A stretch of 64,000 nt of DNA from Notolepis coatsorum (lineage: Eukaryota; Chordata; Actinopteri; Aulopiformes; Paralepididae), in contig OZ020588.1 of NCBI GenBank assembly GCA_963971535.1, positions 126,310,264 to 126,374,263 of the forward strand, in the 5' to 3' direction. Each line of letters begins with the position of its first letter. Positions within the stretch are counted from its first letter, which is position 1. Under the pieces are notes generated by a model that ran no database searches, had not been told where the DNA came from, and saw only the letters and a program-made list of their open reading frames with translations. Both the position numbers and the translations under genes were made by a program. Below, one piece after another: positions 22,074 through 63,080 of the stretch.

Positions 22074-23028
22074 CAACCTTGCGTCTAAATAGAGCATTGA
22101 GAACCGCGTGCGAATAGAATGTTAAAGTGTCAGAGTTTAATGAAGTAACGTTGAGTTCGACTTAATCTAATGTGAAGTCAATAGTCGATCATTTATTGTA
22201 TATCGTGCGGCCACAGTTCTTCCGTGTGTAGCGTTACCCATCGGTTCGTCGTGTCTTTAGCTAGTGCACTTATCCAGGCTGTGTGGCCTAAATACGTCGC
22301 CCACACCGGAGGAGTCCTAGGCGAGAACCGTTGGACATGTACACAGGAGAATCGGCGCCGGCGATTGCAGAACCATTCCTGGTTGGATTATATTGATTTG
22401 GGACGTGACTACCGGAGAAGAGCACTGTTGATTTCCACTATCGTTTGGGATTTAACCTCCTGAGGATTACCACTCGGGCCTGCCTCGTGGACGGGGCTGG
22501 CTAGCTGTCGTCAATGCTGTCGAGCATCTTGGATTACAACTATTGCTTTTGTCTGCTGATCAAGGAAGTACAAGCACCGACTCCTGTACCTGGAGTCTCT
22601 TTATTCCCCGTTGACTCAGACGGAGTACCCGAAATTCCTCTACCCTCCAGGCCTTACACCCCGGAGGGAACCCATTGTCTCCAGTTGGTACCGGTGTTGC
22701 CCTATATAATTGCTACTATACAACAGGTGGCGTCAGCTTAGACCCATCATAGGATTCCTGCTATTCTTAGTGACTTATGCTCTTGACTGACTTTACGTAT
22801 ATTCTTCGCCATACAAGCGCGACCCTAATTCTCATTCTGTAACCTGACATTGCCTAATAATAATAAATTACCCTCCAATAGTATTTCTGTGTCAATGCCG
22901 TGTTCTTGTGAGTGTTCACCATCTATATTTGATGTACTGTTTGGCCAGTAATTAAAGTACATAACTAGCAGTGGTTTAATCTATCACAATCTTTAATACA
23001 GTCAGGGTTTTGTAACCCCTCAGTTACA
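22074..23028 (+). repeat. BEL 5' LTR, second part
   Basis: Continues the LTR after the LINE and matches 34967-35922. It contains AATAAA (about 22862), a plausible polyadenylation signal, and ends CCCCTCAGTTACA. Confidence 0.93.
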
Positions 23029-41920: not shown

Positions 41921-42339
41921 CACTGAAAAAATGGGAAAGAGCAGGTCTTTGAATTTACACGAATACAGTTAGTGCATTCAACTAATTAATTTATAATCCT
42001 TTTGTGATCATGTTTTAATCAAGTAAAACGTCCGTTGTTTATGGAGAATGTTGAATTTACTGGTTTCTCTCGCATTGATTGAAAACTGACAACTCAGTTA
42101 AATTGAGTAGAGTCACCAACCGGAAATAGTATACCGGAAATAGTATTCGACCGCCAGAAAGTCTGATGGACTCTGAGAGAAGAACTGAAAATTCGTCTTT
42201 TGAGAAAGAACTCCCGAATTGAAAGTAAGTTCATCAAATTGATTTATGTTGGTGTTCAAGTGGGCACTGGGCGACATTTCCTCTATTAGTCTGTCTATCA
42301 GACAAGCGTTGGGTTAGCCACTGGCTAGCTACACAGCAT

Positions 42340-43085
42340 AAAATGTTTGGACAGCTTGCGTTAGCTATAGACAAGCTAGCTAACGTTAGCTACAATAGAC
42401 GAGCTAGCTAACGTTAGCTTTAGACAAGCTAGCTAACGTTAGTTACCTCTAAGGTATGATTATAGCTGGGTAGCTAGCTAATGTTAGCTATAGACAAGCT
42501 AGCTAACGTTAGTTAGTGCCTCTATATGCTTATAGCTGGGTAGCTAGCTAACGTTAGCTATAGACAAGCTAGCTAACGTTAGCTATGGTTAATTAGGGCC
42601 TGGTCACACATTTGCGAAAAATAGAATGGGAGGTGCATTTCTTCCCGCAATAATTTTGTGAATGTGTGACTGCCTGGGGCCCTAACGTTACTTAGCTAGC
42701 TAGCTAGCTCACTGTGTTATATTGTCTAACGTACAGCTTGTGTTAGCTACAATAGACAAGCTAGCTAACGTTAGCTATAGACAAGCTAGCTAACGTTAGT
42801 TAGTCCCTCTAAGCCTAAGGTATGCTTATAGCTGGGTAGCTAGCTAACGTTAGCTATAGACAAGCTAGCTAACGTTAGTTAGTCCCTCTAAGCCTAAGGT
42901 ATGCTTATAGCTGGGTAGCTAGCTAACATTAGCTATAGACAAGCTAGCTAACGTTAGTTAGTGCTCTAAGCTAGCTAACGTTAGCTATGGTTAATTAGGG
43001 GTCCGGTCACAATAATTTTGAGAATGTGTGACTGGGCCCTAACGTTACTTAGCTGTGTTATATTGTCTAACTACTAGCTAGCTAA
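42340..43085. repeat. Palindrome-rich tandem array of agctagctaacgttagct motifs
   Basis: gctagctaacgttagc occurs about 15 times in direct and mirrored arrangement, with an approximately 80-bp higher unit (gctgggtagctagctaacg at 42832 and 42912). Each core contains the self-complementary taacgtta. Confidence 0.9.
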
Positions 43086-43591
43086 ATGAAGTCCCATTGA
43101 TGAATAGAAATAAGCTCAACACTGCAGTGATCAGTGAAATTATTGTTTGTTTCAGGTTCATGGTGTCTACGGTCAAATTGTCTCCTTGTATTTAAAGTTA
43201 TATCCATTATTTATGAATTGATAGCACTAGCACATTTCCATAATGTTTTGAATTGTTAGTGCAGTAGACCTTTTTATTATAATTAGGCCTAGAGATCAGA
43301 GCTTTAATAATGTAACTAATGATGGTCTTGATTTATGTTACAGGTGCTGGAAATGTAACAGAAATGATCAAGTAGGTCCCAAGCTTTTGCATCACTATTA
43401 AGGCATTCTTTAACAGCATCATAACACATTAAAACACATTTAGCTGGTTAGTGTTTGTCCTTGTATTTAAAGATATATCCATTATTTATGAATTGATAGC
43501 ATTATTACATTTCCATAATGTTTTGAATTGTTAGTGCAGTAGACCTTTTTATTATAATTAGGCCTAGAGATCAGAGCTTTAATAATGTAAC

Positions 43592-44656
43592 TGTGAGGTT
43601 TCTGTCCTTGCTCTCTCACTCGTTCTGTTCCTTTAACCACCTCGCTCTGTTTTCATTTGTTTTTTCTGTTAATTATTTCAATTCCCTCATTCACACGCTT
43701 CTCCCCAGTGACGTCATCAGAGACGTCGCTGATTGGTTCTCTCAGGTCTGCACGCTTTTCAATCACATTCCCCAGCTGTCACTGCTTGTCAATCTATCAA
43801 TCCCTTATTATTTATACCCCATTTCTCCACTCTAAGTTTGTTGGATCGTCTTGATTTTTCTCTGGTTGCATTCTCCGTTTTGCTACTGCTGCTGCTTTTG
43901 CACTATGTGCTATCTCCAGGATTTTTCCAAGAAGCCTTCCTCTTGGACACCTGTTCCCGTGGCGCGCGCTCGCTCCGCTGTTGTTCCAGCACCATTACGC
44001 ATTACGTCTGGGTGAGTTTTTATTGACTGTCTTGATCTATTCCGTTTTTCGTGTGTTACTATTACACTGAAGATTACCACCTTTTTGTCAGACAGTCACT
44101 CACCCAGCGTTCCCTTTTGTTTGTTTCTCTGGGATAATATTTTTGGGACTTTTCATCTCCCTCTGTGTGTTGCTCACACCGAAGATATTATTTCACATTT
44201 GGATTGTTTTTGGACTTCACTACTGTGTGTATATTACACGAAGATATTCACTTGGGACTGTGTTTGGAATTTTGCTCACTGTGTATATTACACGAAGATA
44301 TTCACTTGGGACTGTGTTTGGAATTTTGCTCACTGTGTGTATTACACGAAGAGATTCACTTGGGATTTGTTTTTGGAATTGTGCTCACTGTGTTTAATTA
44401 CACGAAGATTAGTTCACCCTGTTCTCCTGCTCGTTCAAACTGCACTGTTATTGACTCGTTCCCTCTCTCCCTCTCTCGGTCTCGCAACACATCGGAGATT
44501 CTGCCGAGAGAATTCTGCAGAGCGGTCCTAACGTCAACATCTGCTATTCCCAAACTACCACCACGGGAGAAGCTGCAGAGCAGCAGAACTTTGCCCCCTG
44601 GCCTATGTACCTGTCTTGTTGACTTGCCTATCCTGTACTCTTTATATTTAGTATTC
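43592..44656 (+). repeat. Gypsy 5' LTR, truncated at its 3' end
   Basis: Matches the 3' LTR closely but has three units of a roughly 55-bp internal repeat (gaagatattcacttgggact) where the 3' LTR has two. The U5 end is deleted. Confidence 0.92.
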
Positions 44657-44836
44657 GGTTCGGTTCGCGAGGAGGAACCCATGCAGCTGGGAAGCTCTCA
44701 TCTGAGCCAGGCGGAGCGTGAGGCAAGGCTCAGGTCCGGTCTCTGCCTCTACTGCGGAGGTGCGGGACACCGTATCGCCGACTGCCCCACCCGGCCAAAA
44801 GATCAGGCTCACCGAGACCCCGGGAAATCCTGGTGA
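44657..44836 (+). pseudogene. Gypsy gag C-terminal remnant with CCHC knuckle
   Basis: Joined directly to the truncated LTR. It encodes [13 protein letters not shown] and [15 protein letters not shown], a CCHC zinc knuckle that binds element RNA, and ends at a TGA at 44834-44836. The N-terminal gag is deleted. Confidence 0.85.
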
Positions 44837-44874
44837 GCCGTTTTTCCCATTCCCAGCGCCGCGCACCTCCTGAC

Positions 44875-45360
44875 CATCTGATGAGCGTCACCCTGGCCTG
44901 AGGGGACCAACGTGCCACGGTGGAGGCCCTCATCGACTCTGGGGCAGACGAGAATTTCCTCGAATTCGAGTTTGCCACCCGAGCCAACATACCTCTTGAG
45001 GACCTTGTGAGGCCCTTGGAGATCTTTTCGTTGGACCAACACCGCCTGGCCGACATCTCTCAACGCACCGGCCCAGTCGTGCTGACCATCGCTGGGAACC
45101 ACGTCGAGAGAATCCAGTTCCTCATTACCCAATCCCCCCTTGTCCCGGTGGTCCTGGGTAGGCCCTGGCTCGCGCTGCACGAGCCCCACATCGCCTGGTC
45201 CTCCGGTACCATCAGGGGCTGGAGCTCCTCCTGTCACGCCCGCTGTCTGCAGGCGGCGTCCTGTCCCCCGCCCCGGAGGCCCGCTGGTGAGTTGCCCCCG
45301 GACCCCTCGTCCATACCTCCCGAGTACCACGACCTCATGGAGGTATTCAGTAAGACCAGG
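44875..45360 (+). pseudogene. Gypsy retropepsin-like protease region
   Basis: VEALIDSGADENFLE (catalytic DSG) and VVLGRPWLALHEP are classical retropepsin motifs. A TGA at about 44899-44901 lies upstream and may be where frame or translation changes from gag. The coding sequence is interrupted at 45360 by a 737-bp insertion; pol resumes at 46098. Confidence 0.85.
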
Positions 45361-46097
45361 CCACGTGAGCGGATCGGCGCGGCCGAGAAATCCGCTCTTC
45401 GCTCTTTAAAGCTTGGTCCGCTCCGCTAATCGCTCATGTTGACCCCGCTCCCAAGTCGCTCTCCGCTCGCTCCCCACTCACCTTGAATCGAGCGCTCCCC
45501 GCTCCCCGTGCCAGATCGCTCGGCAGTTTTTCTTTTTCTTTTTTGGAGCATGGTGTAAATGAGCTCAAACTACAACAGTCTACACCCCCTGGGCCCCTTA
45601 ACAATTGTTTGTATTGAGCCGCATTGTAATTGTAGCCATTCTGCAATGTTAAATAACGTTGTTTATCCATTCACTAGTTCTATTAAGCGATGATAGGCTA
45701 GCCGAGCCACAATGCTATGGTCGCTGCCATTAACGTTAGCATGTAAGCTAACGTCAACAACAATGGCGTCGATACTTTTTTTTAACAGGAGTGAGTGTGG
45801 GCGTCATAGATATCTATGGTGGGCGTCTCTACAGTGACGAAGCCTGAACCCTTCTCATTGGTTGAAAATGGCCTTCATGTTTGTACATCGCCATCTGTTG
45901 CTTTGGCATTGTACTGCATGTATATATTACATCAACAGTGTTAAACCACTGTGAGCGGCCTGGAGTGGATTGGAGCGGAGGAGAACTCTCGCTCCGGACG
46001 TCGCGCCGACTAATTTTAAAACCCACTCCTCGCTCACGTCAAAACAGCCCGCTCCGCGCCCCGCGCCGCTCACACTCCGATCCGCTCACATGGCCTG
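45361..46097. mobile_element. Insertion in gypsy pol: non-autonomous TIR element
   Basis: It is flanked by a 12-bp direct repeat agtaagaccagg (45349-45360 and 46098-46109). The termini are inverted, with ccacgtgagcggatcgg at 45361 and ccgatccgctcacatgg ending at 46093, followed by four extra bases before the right repeat. The ends are rich in gctccgctc motifs. It contains a LINE-B tail (45597-45670). The superfamily is unclear. Confidence 0.7.
45597..45670 (+). mobile_element. LINE-B 3' tail (degenerate)
   Basis: Diverged copy of the LINE-B terminus (gtttgtattgagccgcattg) ending in an attc-like tail. Confidence 0.65.
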
Positions 46098-47339
46098 AGT
46101 AAGACCAGGGCTCAGGCCCTTCCACCTCACCGCCCCTATGACTGCGCCATCGACCTCCGCCAAGGGGCTCCCCTTCCCGGCAGCCGCCTCTACAGTCTGA
46201 CTGTCCCGGAGAAGAAGGCGATGGATCTCTACATCTCTGAGTCATTGGAAGCAGGACTCATTCGGCCTTCCTCCTCCCCGGTGGCGGCCGTGTTCTTCTT
46301 TGTTGGTAAGATTGATGGGGACCTGCGACCCTGCATCGACTATCGTCAGCTCAACGAGATCACCATCAAGAACAAATACCCCCTACCTCTCATGAGCTCC
46401 ACCTTCGAGCCACTGACCCAGGACTCGTTCTTCACCAAGCTGGACCTCCGAAGTGCCTACCATCTTGTCCGTATCCGTGAGGGCGATGAATGGAAGACCG
46501 CCTTCAAGACCCCCAGGGGCCACTACGAGTACCTTGTAATGCCGTTCGGCCTCACCAACGCCCCGGCGGTATTCCAGGCACTCATGAACGACGTCCTTCG
46601 TGACATGCTGGAGGTGTTCGTGGTGGTGTACCTGGACGACATTCTCATCTTTTCCAGGACCCTCGAGGAACACATCCTGCATGTCCGCCGTGTGCTGGAG
46701 CGCCTCCTCCACAATCGGCTCTTCGTCAAGGCGGAGAAGTGCCGTTTTCACTCCAACTCCGTCGACTACCTGGGCTTCATCGTTGAGAAGGGCTTGACCC
46801 GAGCGGATCCTCGCAAGATCCAGGCTGTGGAGGATTGGCCAGAACCCACCACTCGGAAGGAGTTACAGAGTTTCCTCGGGTTCGCCAACTTCTACCGAAG
46901 GTTCATCCGGAACTACAGTCAAGTGGCGGAGCCACTTACCAAGCTAACCTCCCCCGCTCTGCCGTTCGACTGGTCCCCAGCGGCATGCACTGCGTTCCGC
47001 TCCCTCAAGAGAAGGTTCACTTCTGCCCCTATCCTGCTCCACCCTGACCCCAAGAGACAGTTCATCGTGGAGGTGGACGCCTCGGATTCTGGCCTGGGCG
47101 CTGTCCTATCCCAGCGATCTCTTTCAGACCAGAAGGTGCATCCTTGCGCCTTCTACTCGCGTCGCTTCCTCCCCGCCGAGAGGAACTACGACACCGGCAA
47201 TCGGGAGCTGCTGGCGGTCGTGGCTGCGCTGGAAGAGTGGCGTCATTGGCTAGAGGGTGCCGAGGAGCCTTTTACCATCTGGACGGACCACAAGAACCTG
47301 ACGTTCATCCGCGCTTCCAGGTGCCTCAACGGTCGGTAG
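46098..47339 (+). pseudogene. Gypsy reverse transcriptase and RNase H
   Basis: RT motifs: [68 protein letters not shown] and [11 protein letters not shown] (YLDD catalytic box), then the [12 protein letters not shown] connection. RNase [38 protein letters not shown] single in-frame TAG at 47337-47339 (probable CAG-to-TAG change) interrupts the RNase H end; the next codons continue in the same frame into 47430. An ORF beginning at 46221 covers most of this. Confidence 0.92.
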
Positions 47340-48917
47340 GCGAGATGGGCCAGTTTCCTCAGCCGGTTCGACTTCTCGCTGACCTTCCGCCCCGGTTCCC
47401 GCAACACGAAGGCCGACTCCCTGTCCCGGATGCACTCCAAGGGGGCTCCACCCTCTGAGGACCCTTCTCCCATCCTCCCGGAGGCCCGAGTGGTTGGAGC
47501 CATCACCTTGGGCATCGAGGGTGTGGTGAGGCGTGCCCTACGCTTCCAACGTGCTCCAAGCAACGTCCCTAGGAGTCGTCTCTTCGTCCCCGACTCTGTC
47601 CGGTCCCAGGTACTGCTGTGGGGCCATACCAGCCGGTTCGCCTGCCACCCTGGCGTCCATCGCACGTTCTCCTTCCTGGCTCGTCGTTTCTGGTGGCCCA
47701 CCATGCGGAACGACGTCAAGGAGTTCGTATTGGCCTGCGCGGTCTGTGCCCGCAGCAAGGCCTCTCACCAGGCACCCTCCGGGCTCTTGCAGCCACTTCC
47801 CATTCCGAGCCGTCCGTGGTCACATGTGGCGCTCGACTTCGTCACTGGTCTGCCCTCCTCCCAGGGGAACACCTGCCTTCTGACCGTGGTGGATCGATTC
47901 AGCAAGGGGGTCCACCTCGTGGCCCTCTCCAAGCTTCCCTCGGCGGCCGAGACGGCGGACCTCCTGACGCACCACGTGTTCCGCCTTCATGGCTTTCCCC
48001 AGGACATCGTCTCTGACCGGGGGCCCCAGTTCACCTCCCAGGTATGGCGGGCCTTTTGCAAGGGATTGGGGGCAACGGTCAGTCTCTCCTCTGGTTATCA
48101 TCCCCAGACTAACGGGCAGACGGAGAGGATGAACCAGAGCGTAGAGTCTGCTCTTCGGTGTGTGGCAGCCGAGAGACCAGCATCCTGGAGCCGTTTCCTT
48201 CCCTGGGTTGAATACTCCATCAATTCAATGGTCAGTTCCGCCACCGGCCTCTCCCCTTTTGAGGTCTCCCTGGGCTACCAGCCCCCTCTTTTCCCCGCAC
48301 AGGAGACAGAAGTGGCAGTTCCCTCCGTGCAGGTCCACCTCGACCGCTGCCGACGAGTTTGGGAGATCACCAGGACAGCGCTGCTCCGGACATCTGAGCG
48401 CGCCTGTCGTGGTGCCGACCGGCGCCGGGTTCCTGCGCCGACTTACCGCCCTGGGCAGAGGGTGTGGCTCTCCGCGAAGGACCTCCCGCTACGGTCATCG
48501 GCCAAGAAGCTCAACCCCCGTTTCGTCGGGCCTTTCGAGGTCCTGAAGGTACTCAGTCCGGCGGCCCTGCGCCTGAAGCTTCCTGCATCCATGCACATCC
48601 ACCCCGTGTTCCATGTCTCCCGGGTTAAGCCCGTCTCCCTCAGTCCCCTTATGCCTCCAGCTCCTGATCCGCCGCCTCCCGTGTTGGTGGATGGTCACCC
48701 CCAGTGGCAGGTCCGCCGGTTGATGGGCGTTCGTCGGCGGGGCCGGGGGTTCCAATACCTGGTGGACTGGGAGGGTTACGGCCCTGAGGAGCGTAGCTGG
48801 GTCTCCCGGCAGCTCATCGTGGATCCCGGCTTGATCACCGACTTCCATCGAGCCCATCCTGACGAGCCGGGTCGGCCTGGTCGCCGGGTGGCTCCCGTGG
48901 AGGGGGGGGTACTGTGA
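47340..48917 (+). pseudogene. Gypsy integrase with C-terminal chromodomain
   Basis: In frame after the TAG: the RNase H end (ADSLSRM), an H2C2 zinc module ([20 protein letters not shown] ... [10 protein letters not shown]), the integrase core with [10 protein letters not shown] (Asp), [10 protein letters not shown] (Asp) and [12 protein letters not shown] (Glu), and a [14 protein letters not shown]-type GPY/F region. A chromodomain follows near 48710-48850 ([18 protein letters not shown]), which in chromoviruses steers integration to marked chromatin. It ends at a TGA at 48915-48917, overlapping the 3' LTR start. Apart from the upstream TAG it has no break. Confidence 0.92.
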
Positions 48918-50006
48918 GGTTTCTGTCCTTGCTCTCTCACTCGTTCTGTTCCTTTAACCACCTCGCTCTGTTTTCATTTGTTCTTTCTGTTAATTATTTC
49001 AATTCCCTCATTCACACGCTTCTCCCCAGTGACGTCATCAGAGACGTCGCTGATTGGTTCTCTCAGGTCCGCACGCTTTTCAATCACATTCCCCAGCTGT
49101 CACTGCTTGTCAATCTATCAATCCCTTATTATTTATACCCCGTTTCTCCACTCTAAGTTTGTTGGATCGTCTTGATTTTTCTCTGGTTGCATTCTCCGTT
49201 TTGCTACTGCTGCTGCTTTTGCTCTATGTGCTATCTCCAGGATTTTTCCAAGAAGCCTTCCTCTTGGACACCTGTTCCCGTGGCGCGCGCTCGCTCCGCT
49301 GTTGTTCCAGCACCATTACGCATTACGTCTGGGTGAGTTTTTATTGACTGTCTTGATCTATTCCGTTTTTCGTGTGTTACTATTACACTGAAGATTACCA
49401 CCTTTTTGTCAGACAGTCACTCACCCAGCGTTCCCTTTTGTTTGTTCCCTCTGGGATAATATTTTTGGGACTTTTCATCTCCCTCTGTGTGTTGCTCACA
49501 CCGAAGATATTATTTCACATTTGGATTGTTTTTGGACTTCACTACTGTGTGTATATTACACGAAGATATTCACTTGGGACTGTGTTTGGAATTTTGCTCA
49601 CTGTGTATATTACACGAAGATATTCACTTGGGACTGTGTTTGGAATTGTGCTCACTGTGTTTAATTACACGAAGATTAGTTCACCCTGTTCTCCTGCTCG
49701 TTCAAACTGCACTGTTATTGACTCGTTCCCTCTCTCCCTCTCTCGGTCTCGCAACACATCGGAGATTCTGCCGAGAGAATTCTGCAGAGCGGTCCTGACG
49801 TCAACATCTGCTATTCCCAAACTACCACCACGGGAGAAGCTGCAGAGCAGCAGAACTTTGCCCCCTGGCCTATGTACCTGTCTTGTTGACTTGCCTATCC
49901 TGTACTCTTTATATTTAGTATTCAAATAAACAAGCCCTTGTATTTGGCAACTCTGAATTCCTACTCTCTTGTGTCGTGCGTTTGGGGTCGGTGTCAAACC
50001 ATAACA
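48913..50006 (+). repeat. Gypsy 3' LTR (1,094 bp)
   Basis: TGTGAGGTTTCTG...CCATAACA, with AATAAA near 49924, followed by the TSD copy gtaac. Confidence 0.95.
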
Positions 50007-50603
50007 GTAACTAATGATGGTCTTGATTTATGTTACAGGTGCTGGGAATGTAACAGAAATTATCAAGTAGGTCCCAAGCTTTTGCATCACTATTAAGGCA
50101 TTCTTTAACAGCATCATAACACATTAAAACACATTTAGCTGGTTAGTGTTTGTCCTTGTATTTAAAGATATATCCATTATTTATTAATTGATAGCACTAG
50201 TACATTTCCATAATGTTTTGAATTGTTAGTGCAGTAGACCTTTTTATTATAATTAGGCCTAGAGATCAGAGCTTTAATAATGTAACTAATGATGGTCTTG
50301 ATTTATGTTACAGGTGCTGGAAATGTAACAGAAATTATCAAGTAGGTCCCAAGCTTTTGCATCACTATTAAGGCATTCTTTAACAGCATCATAACACATT
50401 AAAACACATTTAGCTGGTTAGTGTTTGTCCTTGTATTTAAAGATATATCCATTATTTATGAATTGATAGCACTAGTACATTTCCATAATGTTTTGAATTG
50501 TTAGTGCAGTAGACCTTTTTATTATAATTAGGCCTAGTGATCAGAGCTTTAATAATGTAACTAATGATGGTCTTGATTTATGTTACAGGGTTAGGTGCTG
50601 GGA

Positions 50604-53600
50604 ATGTGGAGATGTAAGGGGTGCACAGAAACTGTATCAAGTAGGTTCAAGCTTTTGCATCACTACAGGTTAAGGCATCCACGATTTGGAAGTAGTTATC
50701 CCTTTCCATGTACGTACCTGCACTGCCCATGTACATTTAAGACATGGAATGCCCTTATTGTCCACCACAATAAAACCCATTCCACTGGGGTCACTCGGAA
50801 AGAGAAGGCAATATTCAGTTGCAGCCTTTGTGCTTGCAGGGATTTAGCATCAGAGAAGGATTATTTGTGTCATATAAATGCACATCTCAAAAGAAGTGAG
50901 ACGGTTGATTGTATGTTTTTAGGCTGTGACTTTAAAACAAACATTTCTGGCACATTTAAGTCACACAAAAACAGAAAAAACTGCCATCACACATTGGTTG
51001 ATTTTAAACCTGGAGTGATTGTAACTACGATAGCATCTCTGAATGAATTGGAGGCAAATAGTCAGGAGTGTGTAGAGCAGTCAGATACTGCCATTCCTTC
51101 AAGTAGTCATTCTCATACTGAGGACTTGCAGGAGGTCATAGAGCAAGGATTTGCAGCTGCTTTGCTGAAGTTGGAGCATTTGGTCCATGTACCAAGCACT
51201 GCTCTTGATGTGTTTTTAGGGGAACTCCATCATTTGATTTCTTCTGCACCTGTTCCATTATCTTGTGACATTGTGCGTGACATGTTTCATCAGAAAAACC
51301 TCACTGTTGATGAATGTACAATTAGAGAAACTGTTAATGCAATTTATTCTGGTAATCCTGTGCAAAGGTCCATACAAAAAGGTGGCCCCCTAAGTACAGC
51401 ACATATGTGTAAGCAGTATTACAAGGAGAACTTCAGTGTTGTAGAGCCAGTGGAATACATTCTAGATCGTAAAAACAAGTGCAGTTTTCAATATGTCCCA
51501 TTATTGAAGTCCCTGCAGCAACTGTTGGGTCGAAGGGATATCATTGATAACGTTGTTGAGTGCCATCAAAGACAGGAAGGCACATATCAGTACAAGTCCT
51601 CAAGAGATGGTTCCCTATTTAAGGGTAATAGTTTCCTCGCTGGAGAAAAGCCAACTATCATCCTAAATTTGTATGTGGATGACTTTGAAACCTGTAACCC
51701 CCTTGGCACCTCGCGAAAGAAGCATAAGCTTTGTGGTGTTTATTGGGTGTTGGCTAACTTGCCTCCGGGTTCTCATTCCTCGTTAACATCGATCTACTTG
51801 TCAGTTTTGTGCAAAACCGATGATGTTAAAATCTATGGTTATGCAAAGATCTTTGAACCGCTTCTACAAGATCTGAAAACTTTGGAGGATCTGGGTGTTT
51901 ATGTCCCACTGTTGGGTGAGTCAGTTAAAGGTACAATATTCAGTGTAGTGGCTGACAACCTAGGAGCACACAGTGTCGCTGGATTTTTGGAGAGTTTTTC
52001 AGGGGAATACTACTGCAGATTTTGCACAGGAAAGAGCAGTGATATTCAGCAACATTCCGTTGCATCTGGTGCTTTCAGTCTGAGAACCAAGGAGCTCCAT
52101 CAGGCCCCTGTAAAACAAGCCCAAGATACAGGGACATTTTGTTGTGGAGTGAAAAGGGAATGCGTCTTCACAAATAATGTCTCTCATTTTCACGTCATCT
52201 TTGGCTATCCACCTGATCTTGCCCATGACCTTTTGGAGGGTATAATCCCTGCAGAGCTAGCTCATTGCTTAAGAGTGCTTATATCCAGAAAGCTTTTCAC
52301 ATTGGCTGATCTGAACAGCGCCATTCTGAAGTTTCCCTACAAATGGGCCGACAGGACAAACAAACCTCATGTAGTGTCACAAAGTTTCTCCAGCAGAAAA
52401 ACAGTGGGAGGAAACGCTCATGAAAATTGGAGTTTGCTCCGGTTCTTACCTTTTTTGGTTGGTTCACTTGTACCTGAAGATGAGCCTGCATGGCTTGTTC
52501 TTATGGATCTGAAGGACATCACTGAGCTTGTAGTTGCCCCTGTACATAGTGATGACTCGCTGGCTTTTTTTTAAAGTAAAATCCTAGAGCACAGGCAGAG
52601 ATACCAGGAGTTTACTGCTGAATGAGGTATTTGAGTGTACAGTACCTCCACAGCTAAAGAGATTGGTTTTATCTGGTATCACAGTGGCTAAAAAGCTGAT
52701 AGCATCACGATGGTTTCAACCGGAAAAAATTTGCCGGAAGGTCTGGATTCTTACATATCTCGATGTGATTTATCAAGAAATATCTACAGCAAGAATTTTG
52801 GGTCTCAATGAATCCAAAATGACAATGTGGTTAGAAGTGGTGGAGAGAATAAAAGCTAGCATATAAAGGTAGTGTCTGGTTAGGAACAAGTTATAATGGA
52901 TGGATTATCCAATGGGGGGTCCGGGAGGGGGGGTACGAGCTAGAGCATATGTGTGTAGGGTACTAGATAGCAGGTATTAGGGGTATATCCTGTATAAGAC
53001 ATTTAACTAAATGGTGATTTCATTGGATATGCACTGTTAATTAATGCTTGTATATCTTATCGTGTGTTGTCATGTTTGTTTATATGTTTGTTTAAAAAAT
53101 AATACAAAAATAAAATACACAGATACGAGTTGTTCCCTGCCATCAGGCTGCTACCAAAACACCATTATCTGGAGCACTACCCCCAGATGTTTAGGCTGTT
53201 TGGTCCACTTGTCGGACAGTGGACAATGCGATTTGAGGCTAAGCATAGCTTTTTTAAACAGGTTATCAGACACACAAGCTGTTTCAAGAATGTGCCCCTC
53301 TCTTTAGCCTCAAAGCATCAGATGATGATCGCTTACCATCTGAGCTCTCCATGTCTGAGCAAGCCTAAGCTAGAGGTCTCAGCTGTATCCACTCTACCAG
53401 TAGACTTACTCAAAGAGGAAATAGCACAAGTCATCAGGCAAAAGTTCCCTGACACGACTGAGGTTCAACTTGCACAGTGTGTGACAACCAATGGCATAAC
53501 CTATAGGAAGGGAATGATAGCGGCCCACAGAGCAGAAGGGGGATTGCCTGAATTTAGTGAAATTGATCAAATCTGCATTTTACAAGAGAGTGTATTCTAC

Positions 53601-53767
53601 ATTGTCCAATAGCTTTGTGGTTGGTACAGAGAGCATTATAGAGCCCAGCACCCACAAGAACATTCACTTTTGTGGCACTCTGTGAACTCCTGGATACGTA
53701 TCCACTGGTTGACTACAAGATTGGATCAGCCCGCATGGTGACATTGAAAAGGCATATTGAAATAAAA
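50604..53767 (+). pseudogene. C2H2 zinc finger / CACTA-type (Transposase_21-like) transposase, inactivated
   Basis: The first in-frame ATG is at 50604, 16 bp after a splice-acceptor-like ttatgttacag. Four N-terminal C2H2 fingers occupy residues 1-130 (for example CKGCTETVSSRFKLLHHY and CSLCACRDLASEKDYLCHI). A middle region leads to a core with LYVDDFETCNPLG (Asp359-360), VVADNLGAHSVAGF (Asp451), YYCRFC, and PPDLAHDLLEGIIPAEL (Asp542/Glu545), matching the pattern of CACTA Transposase_21 proteins. The C-terminal part resumes after a LINE insertion: PKHHYLEHYP, MRFEAKHSFFK, and finally YPLVDYK...MVTLKRHI at 53700-53760. Breaks are TAA at 52570, LINE at about 52605-53115, TAG at 53609 and a frameshift near 53660. 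It would bind ends and cut or join the element; here it is dead. Confidence 0.75.
52605..53115 (+). mobile_element. L1/Tx1-type LINE 3' fragment inside the transposase ORF
   Basis: 52608-52866 encodes VPPQLKRLVLSGITVAKKLI followed by ASRWFQPEKICRKVWI and a helical tail to KASI, the pattern of an L1/Tx1-like ORF2 C terminus (aaxxxIAxxWk.p..p....W). A 3' UTR and A-rich end reach about 53115. Imperfect target repeats agatac(cag)gagtt lie at about 52591-52603 and 53119-53129. Transposase homology continues in frame across the insertion. Confidence 0.7.
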
Positions 53768-53945
53768 GGTCTGTCTGTCTGTCACCGTCACTGTCTGTCA
53801 CCGTCACTGTCTGTCACCGTCACTGTCTGTCTGTCACTCACTCTCTGTCACTGTCACTCACTCTCTGTCACGGCCTATCTCTGTCTGTTTGTCACTCACT
53901 CACTGTCTGTTACTGTCATGGTCTGTCACTGTTTGTCTGTCATAA
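53768..53945. repeat. Degenerate CTGT/CACT microsatellite
   Basis: Repeats of ctgtctgtcaccgtca and ctctctgtcact between the two genes. Confidence 0.9.
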
Positions 53946-54150
53946 AATGTGTGCTATCAGGGGGGAATGGGGGTTATTGGGGAAAAGGTAGTCTCACGTT
54001 AGTGGAGAGAGGTCTGGTTTCCATTCACAAACTTACTGTACTCAATACTTGAAAAGTAGGCTTTTACCACTTAATTTGAAATCTGAAATGTATGGATGTC
54101 TGATGTCTAATAACTTTTGTTGTGTCTCTACAGAGTAAAATACTTTGAAG

Positions 54151-56988
54151 ATGGCGACTCCTGTGATCCTTAAGATCATCTTGACTGATGGCAGCTCTCA
54201 GAGATTGACTCTCTCCCATGGATTCCCTGCATCCATTGATGGCCTTCTTATTGAAGTGATGAAACAGTGTGGACTTCAGGGCAGCTTCGGACTTCAATTT
54301 AAGGACTCCTTGTGTGTAAGTGATTTCCTTAACCTTACCTCCATTTCAGAACTAGAAGACAAAGGTACTCTTAAAGTTGTGGATATGTCAAGGCCCATTA
54401 TTCCCTATCCAGTCCTAAACCCCCAAGCTCTCGATCCTTTCTCTGGAAATACTTCTCTGCTCTCGTCGGATGGATCTATGGATACAGATATACTGTCATC
54501 GAGTGTGTCTACAATGTCCTCTTGGCCTACTTCTTCTCAAGTGCCTGAATCTGTGGATCCAGATGTACTGCCATCAATTGAGTTTAGGAGCTCACGGTCC
54601 TCTTGGCCTGCTGTTTTCCACGTGCCTAAGTTCCCCTATGATGCTGAAATAAAACTTGAGCAGGCAAATTTTGCTTATAGTCAAAATGGCACTGTACGTA
54701 CCCCTGATCCCAAGTTGAAGTCAGCCATCCTTGATGGTTTAGTGCAGGAAATTGTTCTGTATAAAGTCTATGTCAGTGATACGGAGATGGAAAAAACAGC
54801 GCAGAGTCTTATCAAGGCACATCCATGTTTAACTGAGAAGGGGTCCAGCACTGGATATGGCGCATGGAAGATGAGTTTAAAATATAAATTGGGTAACTAC
54901 CGCAGAGAGCTGAGACATCTGGGCTGCCCAGAGGTGACGGTGAACTCTTTAAGAAACAAACCAACAGGAAAGCGTGCAGCCTTCGGTGTCAAAAAGGCCA
55001 AGAGAGCAGAGGTTAACTTCTGCCCACCATACCCATCAGCAGAAACGGAGGAAAGTCTGGAGGCCATGCAGAAAGATCTACTCTTGGATGTGAAGAAGAG
55101 GAACAACAGAGATGTTGTGAAACTGAAGATGGAGAAGACTTTCGCACATAAAAGACTTGAAGTCGTCCGTGATGCACCAATGGTGGAGCCTTTCATGGCA
55201 AGGTGGCCAGCTCTCTTTGAAGTCAATAAGGTATGTATGGCTTATCTCATCTTGGATTTGCTGTTGATAACGTTACAAGGGAAGTGTTGGGTCCATTGTC
55301 AAACTGCTAATATGATTTTATATTTCGTTGTGCTATATCTCCCCCTTCCTGATCAGCAACTACCCTCTAACCATTTTATTCTGATTCCTGTGCTTTTTAC
55401 CTGTCTTCAGATCAATTCAAGAGAATCACCACCATGCCACTTCAGTCCAAGTTCCTGTCTCAGCTTGATCTCCACTCTGACAACCTGACGAAGCTGTTCC
55501 AAAAGAGGGGAGGACAGCTAGGGGAAAAGCTCAAAAGGCAAATGGCACAAATGGCTGACGTAAATGCTAACTGGTCCCACTGTCATGAAAAACCTACAAC
55601 GTTTTGAATTATGGCTGTTTTGGGGGAATTAAGATTTTTTTTTATTGGAGGAAAGGCTATGGAAATGAATTTTTTTGTTACCACAAATGATTGGTAAAGA
55701 GGGCAATCAAATTGTACAGGAGGCCATGAGTGCTTTATTTTTCATCTTTTTCCTTTCACTATTTGCATCTTTTTGTCTCAGTTTGAACCTTTCCTCTAAA
55801 ATGAGGTATAGTACCGCTTTCAAAGCTCTAGTGCCGCGTTAATTTTTCAATACTGGTATACCGTGCAACACTACTCACAGCAAGGCTTGTGCCATCGTAG
55901 GAATCCTACTGTTCTCAGAGAAATATGTAGTCATATAACAGTTTGAACCAGTAGTTGACTTTAAAATAAAGCACAATGGTTGAATTAAGACACTAATCAA
56001 GAAATGTTCCTTTCAGTGTGATGATGTGGATGCTGGACGTGAGTGTATCCTGAAGCGACTGTGTATCTACATGGGTGAAGATCCAGAAAGCCTTGTGCGA
56101 GAATATGTGGTATGTAGGCCTACATGAATCGGTGCTTATTTATTCTCTCATTTGGCCTTGTAGTCCATGCAGAGTAAGGTCTGACCCATGACTAATTGTA
56201 ACAGAAAGTATCTTCACTTTTATGTTTATATTGATGCCACTGTCTGTTTGTCAGGGCTGAGACATATTTAGCCACAGACTTACCCCCCCCCCCCCAACAT
56301 ACCACAAAGCGCTTCAGGCTCCACAACCAGGCAGGGCCAGGACGGGCTAACTTCTGTGGACTGGAGGAGCTGGGTTGTGGACTGTAACCAATTAATTTAA
56401 TTTAATTATTTAACATCATGATTGGACTTGTTTATTTTTCTTTTCACCACTTATAGCTCTATTTTAGCCCTATTTTAGCTCGTTTTATCCCTATGTATTT
56501 GTCAATCTTGTTTTTAACACATACTAATAAGTGTATGTTATGTATTAACTGTTTTTACTGTTTTTAAATTGCTGTTATGCTGTAATGGACATCTGAATCT
56601 CCCCTCAGGGATAAATAAAGGTTTTCAATCAATATAAGGTGTTAGCCCTTGTTTAACCTTTGTCTGTTTTCTACAGGGTATGGATGAAGACGTCATCAAC
56701 AAGGCCATCGAAGACACCACTGTGGGGATTTATGTTCTTAAAGATCATGCTTCAAGTGACGAACCAGAGAACATAGGAATTATCCTCGAAGGCACCAAGA
56801 TATTGGAAAGTCTGGATAATGGCGCATTAGCTGTTGCAATGCTGTTCGGACTGATGTATGCCTTAAACCTCAGCTACCCTTCGCAGCTCCGCTACACCTT
56901 TGAGGTAATCCAAAAGATTTTCATGGAACTGGATGGAGGTAAACTTTCAAACAAGGCACTCGCTCTAAAAAACAGGCTCTTTCAGTGA
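54151..56988 (+). CDS. PB1-like multi-exon gene, SAMD3-like fish repeat family (second gene of the putative transposon)
   Basis: ATG 54151 follows an intron acceptor (ctctacag at 54126-54133). Exons are 54151-55230 (or 55234), 55411-55559, 56017-56109 and 56677-56988, with GT..AG borders. Residues 1-80 (VILKIILTDGSSQRLTLSHG and following) look like a PB1-type domain. A Ser-rich linker follows, then a WPAVFHVPKFPYDAEIKLEQAN block, a conserved region ending TGYGAWKMSLKYKLGNYRREL, a basic segment (KKAKRAEVNF), then FKRITTMPLQSKFLSQLD, CILKRLCIYMGEDPESLV, and a C-terminal domain ending ALKNRLFQ. I recognise the multicopy fish family often labelled sterile alpha motif domain-containing protein 3-like, although no SAM domain is visible. 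Frame across intron 1 requires the downstream of two overlapping donors (GTATGTATGG). Function unknown. Confidence 0.7.
56290..56634 (+). mobile_element. LINE 3' UTR-like fragment in intron 3
   Basis: Ends aatctcccctcagggataaa followed by taaaggttttcaatcaat, the typical end of CR1/L2-type fish LINEs. No coding part is seen. Confidence 0.5.
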
Positions 56989-57099
56989 AAGCACGTTGAA
57001 AATGTTAATTAGCTAAAAACTTGTTGACCGACGGAGAGAAACAAACAGAGACAGACAGACAGTGATAGACATTGGGCCCACTTGTTCTATGCGCCGCCG

Positions 57100-58790
57100 A
57101 GGCATCTTCAAGGAACACTCCAACATCTTCCCTGGAGTTGGACAAGAAGATACATACCTTTTTCGTCTCTCTGCATGCATTGGGCTTAGGGAACGCCTGG
57201 GCCGTTAGCCTAGCTTAGCTTCATCACTGGAAGTGGGGCAGACATAGCCTAGTTTACTACAGTCAGGAAATATACTCCAAATACAACTCCCAAATGTTCC
57301 TGTAAACATGTTGTGACCTGTGTATTTACCACGTCTCCCAGTCACACAAGTCACACGAGTCTCCCAGTCACACAAGTCTCCAAGTCACTTGTGTGACTGG
57401 GAGACTTGTGTGACTTGGAGACTTGTGTGACTTGTGTGACTTGGAGACTTGTGTGACTTGTGTGACTTGGAGACTCGTGTGACTGGGAGACTTGTGTGAC
57501 TTGGAGACTTGTGTGACTGGGAGACTTGTGTGACTTGAAGACTTGTGTGACTGGGAGACTCATGTGACTTGTGTGACTTGGAGACTCGTGTGACTGGGAG
57601 ACTTGTGTGACTTGGAGACTTGTGTGACTTGGAGACTTGTGTGACTTGTGTGACTTGGAGACTTGTGTGACTTGTGTGACTTGGAGACTTGTGTAACTGG
57701 GAGACTCATGTGACTTGTGTGACTTGGAGACTTGTGTGACTGGGAGACTTGTGTGACTTGGAGACTTGTGTGACTTGTGTGACTTGGAGACTTGTGTGAC
57801 TTGGAGACTTGTGTGACTTGTGTGACTTGAATACTTGTGTGACTGGGAGACTCATGTGACTTGTGTGACTTGGAGACTTGTGTGACTGGAAGACTTGTGT
57901 GACTTGGAGACTTGTGTGACTTGTGTGACTTGGAGACTTGTGTGACTTGGAGACTCATGTGACTTGTGCGACTTGGAGACTTGTGTGACTGGGAGACTCG
58001 TGTGACTTGTGTGACTTGGAGACTTGTGTGACTGGGAGACTTGTGTGACTGGGAGACTTGTGTGACTTGGAGACTTGTGTGACTTGTGTGACTTGGAGAC
58101 TTGTGTGACTTTGAGACTTGTGTGACTTGTGTGACTTGGAGACTTGTGTGACTGGGAGAATTGTGTGACTGAGAGACTTGTGTGACTTGGAGACTTGTGT
58201 GACTTGTGTGACTTGGAGACTTGTGTGACTTGGAGACTTGTGTGACTTGGAGACTCATGTGACTTGTGCGGCTTGGAGACTTGTGTGACTTGGAGACTCG
58301 TGTGACTTGTGCAACTTGGAGACTTGTGTGACTGGGAGACTCGTGTGACTTGTGTGACTTGGAGACTTGTGTGACTGGGAGACTTGTGTGACTGGGAGAC
58401 TTGTGTGACTGGGAGACTTGTGTGACTGGGAGACTTGTGTAACTGGGAGACTTGTGTGACTGGGAGACTTGTGCAACTGGGAGACTTGTGTGACTTGGAG
58501 ACTTGGAGACTTGTGTGACTGGGAGACTTGTGTGACTAGTGTGACTGGGAGACGTTGTAAATACACAGGTCACAACATGTTTACAGGAACGTTTGGGAGT
58601 TGTATTTTGATTGTATTTGGAGTATATTTCCTGACTGTAGTGAACTAGGCTAGATGTCTGCCCCACTTCTAGTGATGAAGCTAAGCTAGGCTAACGGTCC
58701 AGGCGTTCCCTAAGCCCAATGCATGCAGAGAGACGAAAAAGGTATATATCTTCTTGTCTAACTCGAGGGAAGATGTTAAATAAGCTAATT
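57100..58790. mobile_element. Foldback element: 230-bp inverted arms around a GTGTGACTTGGAGACTT minisatellite
   Basis: 57110-57345 (gacaagaagatacatacctt onward) is repeated inverted at about 58550-58775. Between them (57345-58553) lie about 70 short units of the type cttgtgtgact(t/g)ggaga. Open frames through the array are repeat artefacts. It lies just 3' of the SAMD3-like gene stop. Confidence 0.9.
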
Positions 58791-59240
58791 TCCCAAAATG
58801 TTTGAGTTTTCCTTTAAGATCACCTGCTATCAAAATGTCTCAATCAAACCTGCACCACCTCGCCGTCTGTTGTTATTACATAATTTATTTCATTGCTTTT
58901 TATAAACATACGCACTTAAAGTTTTTGTATTTTTCAGCAAATCTCTTCATTACACCAATACTGTTGTGCTGTCAGAACAGTATTATGTTTGTAGGTGAAG
59001 TATTTACCTATATGCTGTCGATGCAGGGTTTACTTGTTGTTCAAGTAAGTTCAAGTTACTTGTTGTATTTTGTATTTCTCTTCATCCATTACTTAATCTT
59101 ACACCAGATGTGTATCAACAGTAGTTTTTTTTCCTTATTTTCATTTGTTTGTGGTAACAGTTCACAGTATTTTGTATTTGCCTTTTACAGTGAGCATATG
59201 CACTTTATAGAGAACCACTGACTGAAACATTATACTACAG
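58791..59240. other. Downstream region, no recognised gene
   Basis: A segment near 58998-59050 (atatgctgtcgatgcagggt ...) recurs at 60838-60880, so a duplication brackets the solo LTR region. Confidence 0.6.
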
Positions 59241-59269
59241 GTCATGTTTTTGTTCCCAAAACTACATTG

Positions 59270-59412
59270 CGGAGCTTCAAACACACCAAGACACATACAG
59301 ACAACATACACACACATTTGTATAACACCAAGACACATACATGCAACATACGCACACATTTTGATCACACCAAGACACATACATGCAAAATACACACACA
59401 TTTCTATCACAT
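59270..59412. repeat. 41-42-bp minisatellite, about 3.4 copies
   Basis: Unit accaagacacatacatgcaa followed by catacgcacacatt and a short variable part. Confidence 0.9.
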
Positions 59413-59424
59413 TAACGTACAAGG

Positions 59425-60609
59425 TGTGAGGTTCGCCTGTTCCCTGGACCTTTAATTCCCTGTCTCCTCACCTCACCAGCCCCCACCCTCGCAATGTTTT
59501 ACTCTCCTATGCTCTTCACCTGCTCCCACCCTTGGACTACCTTTCACAGCTGTGATAAGTTATGATTAGCGCCCCAGAGGGCTTTAAATACCTGGACCTC
59601 CCCTCCAGTCCTCGTCGGGTCGTTCTGTATGCTGGTTCTTTGTTCTGGACTCTTTATCCTTTTCTGTGTTCAGTGTTCATGGAGTCCTGGACGTTACCAT
59701 CACCTGCCGCGTCTCTGGCGTGAGACGAGGTGCCAGCCATCACCACCTTTCGCCGTTTGCCTGGAGTGGGACACGTCTACGCTCTCTAATCCTCTACGGG
59801 AGGTTTTCCAGTGTCCCACTCCAGACGTCAAGCCGGCGCGCTCCAACTCCAGACGCTCAAGCCGGCGCACATCGCTTCCTATCCCACAGGAGGATGCGTC
59901 TCTTCAAGCCGGCGTGCTCCTACTCCAGACGCTCAAGCCGGCGCGCATCGCTTCCTATCCCACAGGAGGATGCGTCTCTTCAAGCCGGCGCGCTCCTACT
60001 CCAGACGCTCAAGCCGGCGCGCATCGCTTCCTGTCCCACGGGAGGATGCGTCTCTTCAAGCCGGCGCGCTCCTACTCCAGACGCTCAAGCCGGCGCGCAT
60101 CGCTTCCTATCCCACGGGAGGATGCGTCTCTTCAAGCCGGCGCGCTCCTACTCCAGACGCTCAAGCCGGCGCGCATCGCTTCCTATCCCACGGGAGGATG
60201 CGTCTCTTCACTTCCGAGGAGGATCTCCTTGCCAGGCCTCCGCCGTCTGAACCCTGCCATCCCTGTAAGCAGCTCTGGCCCTCGCCCTGTCCAAGGCCTT
60301 AACCCTGTTTCTCTGTCCCTGTCCCCAGCCCGCCTCCCCGGGCCTCTGTCCCTGTTCCCCCTCTCCAGTGCCCCTGTTCCTGCCCTGACCTTTTGCCCTG
60401 GCCCTGTCCTTTAGCCTTAGCCCCTTAGCCTGCTCGCCTCTTAAAGGCACAGTGCCACATTTTTCCCTATTTCTTTGTTTCCAGTATTTTTGTGTTCTCC
60501 CTTAAAGGGACAGTGCCGCTTTTTGTTTGTATTGAATAAATGCCCTGTTTTGGCTTACTCTCATACCTGTCTTGTGTTGTGCGATTGGGGTCGGTTACAA
60601 ACCATAACA
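59425..60609 (+). mobile_element. Solo LTR (gypsy-type), 1,185 bp
   Basis: TGTGAGGTTCGCC...CAAACCATAACA with a 5-bp TSD caagg (59420-59424 and 60610-60614). Its ends resemble the LTR at 48913-50006 (tgtgaggtt start, ggggtcgg and accataaca end), so it is a related family. AATAAA is near 60535. It contains a 75-bp tandem repeat. No internal region remains, which is consistent with LTR-LTR recombination. Confidence 0.88.
59830..60215. repeat. 75-bp tandem repeat inside the solo LTR, about 5 copies
   Basis: Unit ggaggatgcgtctcttcaag followed by ccggcgcgctcctactccag. Because 75 is divisible by 3 it leaves all three frames open, which explains the 160-260 codon ORFs here. Confidence 0.95.
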
Positions 60610-60654
60610 CAAGGAGTTCTTAAACAACTAAATTAAAAGAGAATTAAAACACTA

Positions 60655-60832
60655 ACAATTCAAAACATTATGGAAATGTACTAGTGCTATCAATTCATAA
60701 TGAATGGATATATCTTTAAATACAAGGACAAACACTAACCAGCAAAATGTGTTTTAATGTGTTATGATGCCTTAATCGGAGTGATGCAAAAGCTTGGACC
60801 TACTTGATAGTTTCTGTTACATTCCCAGCAGT
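60655..60832 (-). repeat. Inverted copy of the 275-bp array unit
   Basis: The reverse complement matches about 50040-50240 with few differences (ttgcatcactccgattaagg, cctgtatttaaag-type segments). It is the right-hand counterpart of the left array of the candidate CACTA-like element. Confidence 0.88.
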
Positions 60833-60983
60833 ATTTATATGCTGTCGATGCAGGGTTTACTTGTTGTATTTTGTATTTCAACTTTGATAGTCAACTGTCC
60901 CGAACAGTTTTAGAAACATTGACTATCTATTATTATATATTGACTATATATAGCCACTGCTGTTGTTCACCTACCTCATGTTC

Positions 60984-60989
60984 AATAAA
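60984..60989 (+). terminator. Possible polyadenylation signal AATAAA
   Basis: ttcaataaaatg lies in non-repetitive sequence about 4 kb (less with insertions removed) after the SAMD3-like stop, and could end that transcript. Confidence 0.35.
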
Positions 60990-61067
60990 ATGTTAAACAT
61001 TTTTGGTACATAACTCTGACTCTTTGCCTTTTTTGTCAATGCCAAAACATGTAAGATTGTATGAACT

Positions 61068-61335
61068 TGAACAAATCAAGTTAGATTCACTTTAAGAAAT
61101 CAAGTTGTGTTAACTTGAACAAATCAAGTTAGATTTACATTAAGAAATAAAGTTGTGTTTTGAACAAATCAAGTTAGATTTACATTAAGAAATCAAGTTG
61201 TGTTTTGAACAAATCAAGTTAGATTTACATTAAGAAATCAAGTTGTGTTTTGAACAAATCAAGTTAGATTTACATTAAGAAATCAAGTTGGGTTTTGAAC
61301 AAATCAAGTTAGATTTACATTAAGAAATCAAGTTG
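61068..61335. repeat. 45-bp subterminal tandem repeat, about 6 copies
   Basis: Unit aacaaatcaagttagattta followed by cattaagaaatcaagttgtg; exact 45-bp period at 61163, 61208, 61253 and 61298. Its caagtt/aacttg motifs are suited to transposase binding near a CACTA end. Confidence 0.93.
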
Positions 61336-61358
61336 GAGTTAGTGTTGAACATCATTAA

Positions 61359-62299
61359 CACTTTGAGTGCCACTCACGAGATATCTCGGGTTTTTAATAG
61401 TGACGTTGAATGCCACTCACGAGATTTCTCTGATTTTTTTTTATTTTTTTTTTTTTAGCGATCTGAAAAATTATTGCATCACCCGAGCCTACCCGAGTAT
61501 AGCCGAGCGGCGCCGGCGATCACTGTGGAAAAAAGCGCCCCCTGTCGTCTCCCAGATGACATAAGTGATTTTGGAATGGACTCAATGAAAAAAATGGGGA
61601 AAAAAATCCGGTACTCCACATTTTCCAGTCCACTGATCCAGCCGGGGTTACCACAGTTCATTCTGGAACCTCAGATCCCCGCTGATCATGGAGTTCTACA
61701 GTATCGCGTTGGATCCATACACGTATCGATTTTTTCGAATGGTGATCAGGAATTGGAATATACCAGTTGGATACCATCTGATGTCAGGTAAGGACTCTAT
61801 GTTATCAGTGTTAGGATAATCAGAGTAAGTTTGATGAAGATATAGGCTGTTTTGTGAAATGTCTTCTTTCGGTTTCACTGTAAAAGTCTGAGAGGAAATC
61901 AACGAGGCGATTATCCGCGCGCGGCCATAATGTGCTTGCGTGCACGTATAATATTGATCATCTAGCGTTTATTTGAAAACGATTCATAAAAAGGCCGACG
62001 AATATCAACGTTGTGGAATATTCTACTAAAAGACTATTTTCATAGAATGCTCCAGAATTAGCTGTTTTTTATATCAAAACGGGGGCTTTTCTAACTGCTC
62101 TGAAACGGAAACGACGCGATAAAAAAACAATCTGCCTTGACAGCACTGACTGGAAAATAGTCTTTGATAATGCGATGGGCAGATTAGACACATAGCCATA
62201 ATTTAAAACATAGATTAGGCGATATTAACGTTAACATTGGCGCCGATGGTGGCATTCAGCCGGTAAAAAAGAAAACCAGGCGTGGCGCTCAAAGATATG
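61359..62299. mobile_element. piggyBac-like MITE (941 bp) with TTAA duplications
   Basis: TTAA at 61355-61358 and 62300-62303. The ends read CACTTTGAGTGCCACTC and, in reverse complement, CATATCTTTGAGCGCCACGC, that is imperfect TIRs sharing TTTGAG(T/C)GCCAC. A 105-codon frame (61474-61791) ends next to a consensus donor (cag/gtaagg at 61790), possibly a remnant or captured exon. No transposase is seen. Confidence 0.65.
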
Positions 62300-62303
62300 T
62301 TAA

Positions 62304-62517
62304 CATTACACAATTAAATTGTGTTTACTCTAACGACAAATATGTTGAATCAACATGTTTATTTTAAGTAATCTTAATGTGAATGCAATATGTTGGGTTC
62401 ACAAGCAATAAGTAAGTAAGGAGAACGAGGAACAGTATGTCAGTTGGACATATTCTGATCATGTGGAACCAATGTACACATTAAAATCAAGTAAATCCAA
62501 CAAATTTTTTTTCAGTG
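62304..62517. other. Right terminal region of the candidate CACTA-like element
   Basis: Runs to TTTTTTTTCAGTG. In reverse complement the first 30 bp (cactgaaaaaaaatttgttg and on) partly resemble 41921-41965, supporting a terminal inverted relation. Confidence 0.45.
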
Positions 62518-63080
62518 ACCATGTCAAAATGAGGGTTCCTATGGGTTTCCCTAAGTTTAAGTTACATGCCAGGTCACTTAGTGTCAGATTGCATCGCTCA
62601 GTTTGAGGAGAAGCCATTATGCAAACAGTGCTGGGATTATAAATATTGCACTTTAAAAACAATCAACTGAATATTTCAACTTTGCGCCATTGGCACAATC
62701 AAGGTAGTGTTATAACAAAGCCAACAAAGTAATTTCACGTCTTTACATTAACGTTGAGCCCAATTGGTGAGCATTTGTTTTCACCCAACCTCACACTATA
62801 CGGTTGAGCACAGTAGAGGTTGGGTCTACCAGCTAGTGGCAGACCAATAAGGCTGTGGTGGTATTAAACCTTTGTTGCCATGTGCTGCTGATGAGGAGAG
62901 GGGGTTCGCAGTTCAAGGCTGGACAAATTGCAGGTGCCGAGAGCAAAGTGCCCGTAACCAGCGACCACCAGTCATGCCTGCAGGACAGTGTAATTTATCT
63001 CCACTCTCTCTGTCACACACTCATAACCAAGCACCACTTGGTGCTCAACCTACTGTAGAGCTGTGAAGGTATACCGCTTT
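62518..63080. other. Unassigned
   Basis: No convincing gene. 62780-62840 holds an inverted pair cccaacctc / gaggttggg. Confidence 0.4.

Follow-up and report, generated by a model that had tools for sequence, protein, structure and literature searches.

A two-gene CACTA-type transposon with a PB1-domain partner gene in the genome of the fish Notolepis coatsorum

In a stretch of 64,000 nucleotides of the Notolepis coatsorum genome (contig OZ020588.1; host genome of 3.42 Gb), hereafter called the window, from the first letter of which all coordinates are counted, two genes lie next to each other on the same strand, and the locus raises the question of whether they move together as one element and what the second of them could be for. 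An earlier note had read the region 41921..62517 as one two-gene transposon, carrying a transposase gene (gene 1) and a gene for a PB1-like partner (gene 2). Comparison with other copies showed that this region represents one of many copies of a CACTA-type (EnSpm/CMC) DNA transposon, which inserts as a single unit bounded by CACTG...CAGTG; the reading of the region as a single element held, except that about 9.0 of its 20.6 kb are later insertions. Taken as a whole, the locus is with high probability a dead copy of a two-gene CACTA-type element, gene 2 of which would encode an accessory protein resembling plant TnpA.

Termini, target duplication and empty sites

The window copy was aligned with three copies located elsewhere in the same genome (c9a, c8a, and c24a). 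The 5' end CACTGAAAAAATGG... and the 3' end ...TTTTCAGTG recur in independent copies. In c9a and c8a both ends are as in the window copy, and homology breaks off at CACTG on the left and at CAGTG on the right; c24a has the same 3' end except for the last base (CAGTT), and its 5' end is located further upstream, with TA outside. The terminal pattern of the CACTA superfamily, CACTN...NAGTG, is thus present as CACTG...CAGTG at the common ends, and the outer ends, which the earlier note had regarded as its weakest point, proved to be exact. With up to three mismatches allowed, the left 38 bases were found at 139 places of the genome; the right-end pattern was found at 75, and the reversed controls gave no matches. 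Pairing of 100 listed of the 139 5' ends with 63 of the 75 3' ends (12 on small contigs were excluded) revealed 33 same-strand pairs within 80 kb and no opposite-strand pairs. A 999-bp derivative (C27:18583538-18584536) retains both ends and the right array, has its own CA duplication, and contains no genes.

Insertion duplicates 2 bp, mostly TA, in line with the short (2-3 bp) duplications of the CACTA superfamily. Flanks were read for 30 of the 33 end pairs, leaving out the three longest (>50 kb), and the 2-bp flanks match in 19 of them; in mismatched pairs (n = 870) the rate is 31%. Among the nine pairs with a left flank other than TA, six match, one of the six being in a TG repeat and therefore little informative. 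In nine of the 11 non-matching pairs, the window copy included (position 62518), the right flank starts with A, which may mean that one base was lost or that junctions of another kind exist.

When the copy at C8:188.878-188.897 Mb is taken out and its flanks are rejoined with one TA kept, the resulting 140-base sequence is present without interruption, at 98-99% identity, at every one of the 40 places scored among 1647 first-look candidates; 35 of the matches cover all 140 bases and five cover 138. These places are a set of empty sites within a high-copy repeat. The checks proposed at the outset, common ends with a 2-4 bp duplication across loci and empty sites in related individuals, were therefore borne out for the former, whereas the empty sites found are paralogous ones within the same genome.

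The transposase gene

The frame of gene 1 is open over 942 codons in c9a, c8a, and c24a, and in the window copy an L1-like insertion and two or more premature stops interrupt it. Gene 2 of the window copy is thrown out of frame in exon 2, where 7 bp are deleted. With neither gene intact and no matching duplication, the window copy is dead. In its own genome, gene 1 was scored at 67 loci, many with 96-98% identity (all counts refer to scored loci only, 67 of 2376 first-look candidates for gene 1 and 113 of 1209 for gene 2).

An alignment of 42 gene-1 homologues revealed an invariant set of D, D, and E residues behind four C2H2 units; of the 16 Cys/His positions in these units, 15 do not vary and one is kept in at least 90% of the sequences. 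We read these units as putative zinc fingers and the acidic residues as the probable catalytic triad. The match of the window protein to Transposase_21 (Pfam PF02992) is weak (E 0.072; 12.7 bits, under the curated cut-off of 28.6), but the same profile was found in 14 of the 42 homologues at E<=0.01, with a best value of 4.3e-5, and is precomputed for homologue P0212. Such weak but recurrent matches, together with the invariant D, D, and E, correspond to the Transposase_21 (tnp2) DDE transposases of the CACTA superfamily. Among the 120 homologues listed, those with names come from teleosts and one sturgeon.

The PB1-domain partner gene

Gene 2 starts at 54151 on the + strand, about 0.4 kb downstream of the transposase coding sequence, as the earlier note had stated, and was modelled as four exons extending to 56988. 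The exon-2 deletion is found neither in c8a and c24a, which have open transposase frames, nor in two derivatives. The window protein has no Pfam match; however, the PB1 profile was detected in 11 of 44 aligned homologues at E<=0.1 (best 2.6e-5), and the predicted structure of a close relative contains the ubiquitin-like PB1 fold, which supports the description of the partner as PB1-like. In the 44 sequences, 33 columns are invariant.

Relatives with names are teleost proteins labelled as uncharacterised, PB1-domain, or SAMD3-like (two entries also have a ferret name), and the SAMD3 name is attached to at least 15 of the 120 listed. Many of the fish SAMD3-like proteins in this list are full-length homologues of gene 2; unlike SAMD3, however, the 44 aligned members have no SAM domain among their Pfam matches at E<=0.1.

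Linkage of the two genes

Gene 2 is located downstream of gene 1 within 30 kb at 60 of the 67 scored gene-1 loci, always on the same strand, and within 3.5 kb at 51 of them, while about 0.03 would be expected by chance. Of 77 gene-1 and 116 gene-2 rows, 67 and 113, respectively, entered the count, the others being extra pieces of counted loci. Ten copies of one broken element, spaced by about 100-140 kb, three on the + and seven on the - strand, lie at C1:6.85-8.05 Mb, with two more on contig C2646; this group is probably a recent segmental duplication array, and with it counted once the linkage is 49 of 56.

A search of the same genome with a fused Merluccius polli gene model, named SAMD3, revealed two further families. 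The second is 42-43% identical to the query and has gene 2 located 586-595 bp downstream at 24 of 24 scored loci (61 of 63 rows were used; seven of 34 gene-1 rows have no gene 2, five of them being window-family loci paired in the main count). Three of its copies are 99.3-99.5% alike over 6.2 kb, and the family is young. Two copies share the 3' end CGGGTTTACAGTG, followed by TA, and in one copy the inverted CACTGTAAACCCG, preceded by TA, was found upstream of an assembly gap, giving a 13-bp perfect terminal inverted repeat. The third family is about 60% identical to the query and has one linked locus of three.

In other fish the evidence comes from protein gene models rather than genome searches. 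Transposase sequence precedes gene 2 in four of the 120 listed gene-2 relatives, and a length-shifted search returned six proteins, of which one was a known fusion, two were new fusions, and three had no transposase. In the fusion of Merluccius polli, named SAMD3 by its depositors, the transposase occupies residues 3-884 and gene 2 residues 878-1374, and in that of Coilia grayii residues 2-784 and 785-1281, respectively. Fused models were thus obtained for six species (Merluccius polli, Coilia grayii, Solea, Cirrhinus, Dissostichus, and Synaphobranchus), which belong to different teleost orders. We read them as gene-prediction fusions, and therefore as two genes neighbouring each other on one strand. 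The pair thus keeps its order and strand in three families of the Notolepis coatsorum genome (the third being represented by a single linked locus) and in the gene models of six further teleost species. The genes do not rarely occur together, nor do their loci share host synteny in place of termini, either of which would have spoken against a transposon: the termini are shared and homology stops at them. Between the window family and five others, gene 1 is 42-52% and gene 2 37-54% identical (two of the comparisons being based on short gene-1 pieces); gene 2 thus diverges between lineages about as slowly as the transposase.

Comparison with known transposons

Plant CACTA elements carry subterminal repeats. 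As described in passages of PMC4158355, they generate 3-bp duplications and encode a transposase and a second protein, which in some families aids excision and transposition. The element described here resembles these En/Spm-type systems (TnpD with TnpA or ORF2), as far as those passages go, in having two genes between CACTN ends and a DDE transposase, and gene 2, like TnpA-type accessory proteins, is encoded in the element of its transposase. It differs in its CACTG ends, in the 2-bp instead of 3-bp duplication, in C2H2 units on the transposase, and in the PB1 partner, beside which TnpA and ORF2 can be set by description only.

Among animal elements, the TRC transposon SmTRC1 is similar in its Transposase_21 domain and 2-bp duplication, seen in 7 of 14 copies, and has a transposase relative in zebrafish, according to excerpts of PMC1636069; a 2-bp duplication also appears in an excerpt of PMC4298943. 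However, TRC ends are described there as beginning with CCC. In the same excerpts of PMC1636069, the second open frame of a SmTRC1 transcript shares sequence with another SmTRC1 product, and no PB1 partner is mentioned. The non-autonomous EnSpm families of zebrafish share the superfamily label and a teleost host, and EnSpm-N6_DR is given in an extract of PMC3485254 as a 346-bp non-autonomous element. No report of a vertebrate two-gene CACTA form with a PB1 partner was found in the portions of literature covered by our search; Repbase, which lay outside it, may hold a two-gene consensus. Relative to that literature, a two-gene CACTA element in a vertebrate, with a SAMD3-like PB1 protein as the partner, is new.

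Possible role of the partner

By analogy with plant TnpA, gene 2 could encode an oligomerising, probably DNA-binding accessory of transposition. The transposase would cut at the CACTG ends, and the partner would oligomerise through PB1, while its three-helix domain would bind the subterminal arrays or bridge transposase molecules on them; either action could bring both ends of the element together. Such a partner would be a functional analogue of TnpA, possibly of separate origin.

Several observations weigh against this proposal or parts of it. The need for gene 2 in transposition is something that we infer. The window copy is flanked by TA and AC, so that the mismatch remarked on in the earlier note for the flanking trinucleotides stands for this copy; 10 other pairs also have unequal 2-bp flanks. 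Of the 113 scored gene-2 loci, 53 have no gene 1 in the scored list; two of these were read and are internal-deletion derivatives with the usual ends, gene 1 mostly or wholly deleted, and gene 2 damaged. Both DNA-binding hints for gene 2 (helix-turn-helix, forkhead or homeodomain-like) are below significance, and a Foldseek search with its middle domain gave a best match with an E of 1.0. In the second family, the 5' end comes from one copy, with the assembly gap between it and gene 1, and another copy, read over 11 kb upstream, lacks this end there. Three of the six length-shifted matches (P0243-P0245) are gene-2 pieces in unrelated models without transposase. Finally, the within-family ratio of nonsynonymous to synonymous differences (pN/pS) has a value of 0.80 in gene 1 and values of 0.57-2.2 in ten pairs of gene 2, as in decaying copies; since these ratios look neutral, the case for function rests on the conservation between lineages.

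That conservation bears directly on the suggestion that the transposon picked up gene 2 from a host in a single event and carries it as a passenger that takes no part in transposition. The SAMD3 name borne by its relatives, the damaged gene 2 retained in deletion derivatives, and the gene-2 pieces within unrelated gene models are what a passenger could leave behind, but a passenger should decay, while gene 2 is about as conserved as the transposase, and the pair persists at numerous loci of two families, at a single locus of a third, and in six distantly related teleosts; we consider this origin very unlikely. Somewhat less improbable, albeit still the weaker case, is a regulator acting outside the cutting complex, as a repressor of expression or an anti-silencing factor at the subterminal arrays. 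Arrays are found near both ends, plant TnpA-type proteins have regulatory roles, and PB1 proteins form assemblies; against this, the present data do not separate regulation from support of excision. The idea that no transposon is involved, and the two genes merely sit side by side within a segmental duplication or a cluster of host genes, fits the 12-locus group on C1 and C2646, but linkage persists with that group counted once, and ends shared by loci whose flanks are unrelated, 2-bp duplications, and above all rejoined flanks uninterrupted at 40 places led us to reject it as next to impossible.

With gene 2 taken as a TnpA-like accessory, the element is a vertebrate counterpart of the plant two-protein CACTA system, and its young second family makes the question of why a second protein is needed directly testable in a vertebrate. 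The earlier note had also supposed that fish SAMD3-like genes are transposon genes: three SAMD3-named models (P0094, P0095, and P0241) contain transposase sequence, and transposon genes are found among, and perhaps make up most of, the fish genes annotated as SAMD3-like or PB1. Studies of gene number, expression, or family expansion that use these genes could thus mislead. Since the aligned fish proteins are so named without having a SAM domain, it is suggested that SAMD3 shares the non-SAM part, which raises the testable question of whether this mammalian gene derives from a transposon partner. One could tentatively hypothesise that vertebrate CACTA transposons carry a PB1 and helix-turn-helix-like accessory of which the SAMD3 of land vertebrates is a domesticated descendant or the source, although we hold this for possible rather than probable.

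Structure of the window copy

The subterminal repeats and the inverted pair of array units described in the earlier note are real, and arrays with a 275-bp unit were confirmed (Table 1). Copy c8a has a length of 12.2 kb, versus 20.6 kb for the window copy.

Table 1. Features of the window copy of the transposon
Feature	Position	Strand	Remarks
5' terminus CACTGAAAAAATGG	41921..41934	+	inverted match to 3' end of about 11 bp; common to c9a, c8a, c24a
Left subterminal tandem arrays	42359..42988		70/79-bp units with AGCTAGCTAACGTTAGCT; also in c8a
275-bp tandem array ahead of gene 1, left part	43183..43591	+	
Later insertion, putative gypsy-type long terminal repeat (LTR) element	43592..50006	+	inside 275-bp array, 5-bp GTAAC flanks; absent from c9a, c8a, c24a
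275-bp tandem array, right part	50007..50589	+	
Gene 1, N-terminal part	50604..52574	+	four C2H2 units, putative DDE core (D codon 51681, D 51954, E 52236); premature stop at 52572-52574
Later insertion, putative L1 3' end	52613..53117	+	within gene 1; about 0.5 kb; absent from c9a, c8a, c24a
Gene 1, C-terminal part	53130..53768	+	end approximate; second premature stop at 53610-53612; matches 942-codon frame of c9a, c8a, c24a
Gene 2, exon 1	54151..55230	+	PB1 domain, linker, helical domain
Gene 2, exon 2	55411..55559	+	7-bp frameshifting deletion in window copy
Gene 2, exon 3	56017..56109	+	modelled by homology
Gene 2, exon 4	56677..56988	+	to stop codon; modelled by homology
Internal minisatellite	57387..58558		17-bp based; also in c9a, c8a, c24a
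Later insertion, LTR-like piece	59425..60609	+	CAAGG flanks; not in c9a, c8a, c24a alignments
Inverted unit of 275-bp array near 3' end	60650..60830	-	
Right subterminal array	61067..61335	+	45-bp units with AATCAAGTT; also in c8a
Later 933-bp insertion	61359..62291		kind not assigned; absent from c9a, c8a, c24a
3' terminus ...TTTTTTTTCAGTG	62504..62517	+	identical end in c9a, c8a; 75 places, control 0

The insertion within the 275-bp array was judged to be of the gypsy type from its open frames, and the one within gene 1 looks like an L1 3' end from its translation. The ends of the LTR-like piece resemble those of the gypsy element. Outside the transposon, a 1-kb repeat at 21057-22074 of the window is 98% identical to one located within second-family copies (L126 3386-4403).

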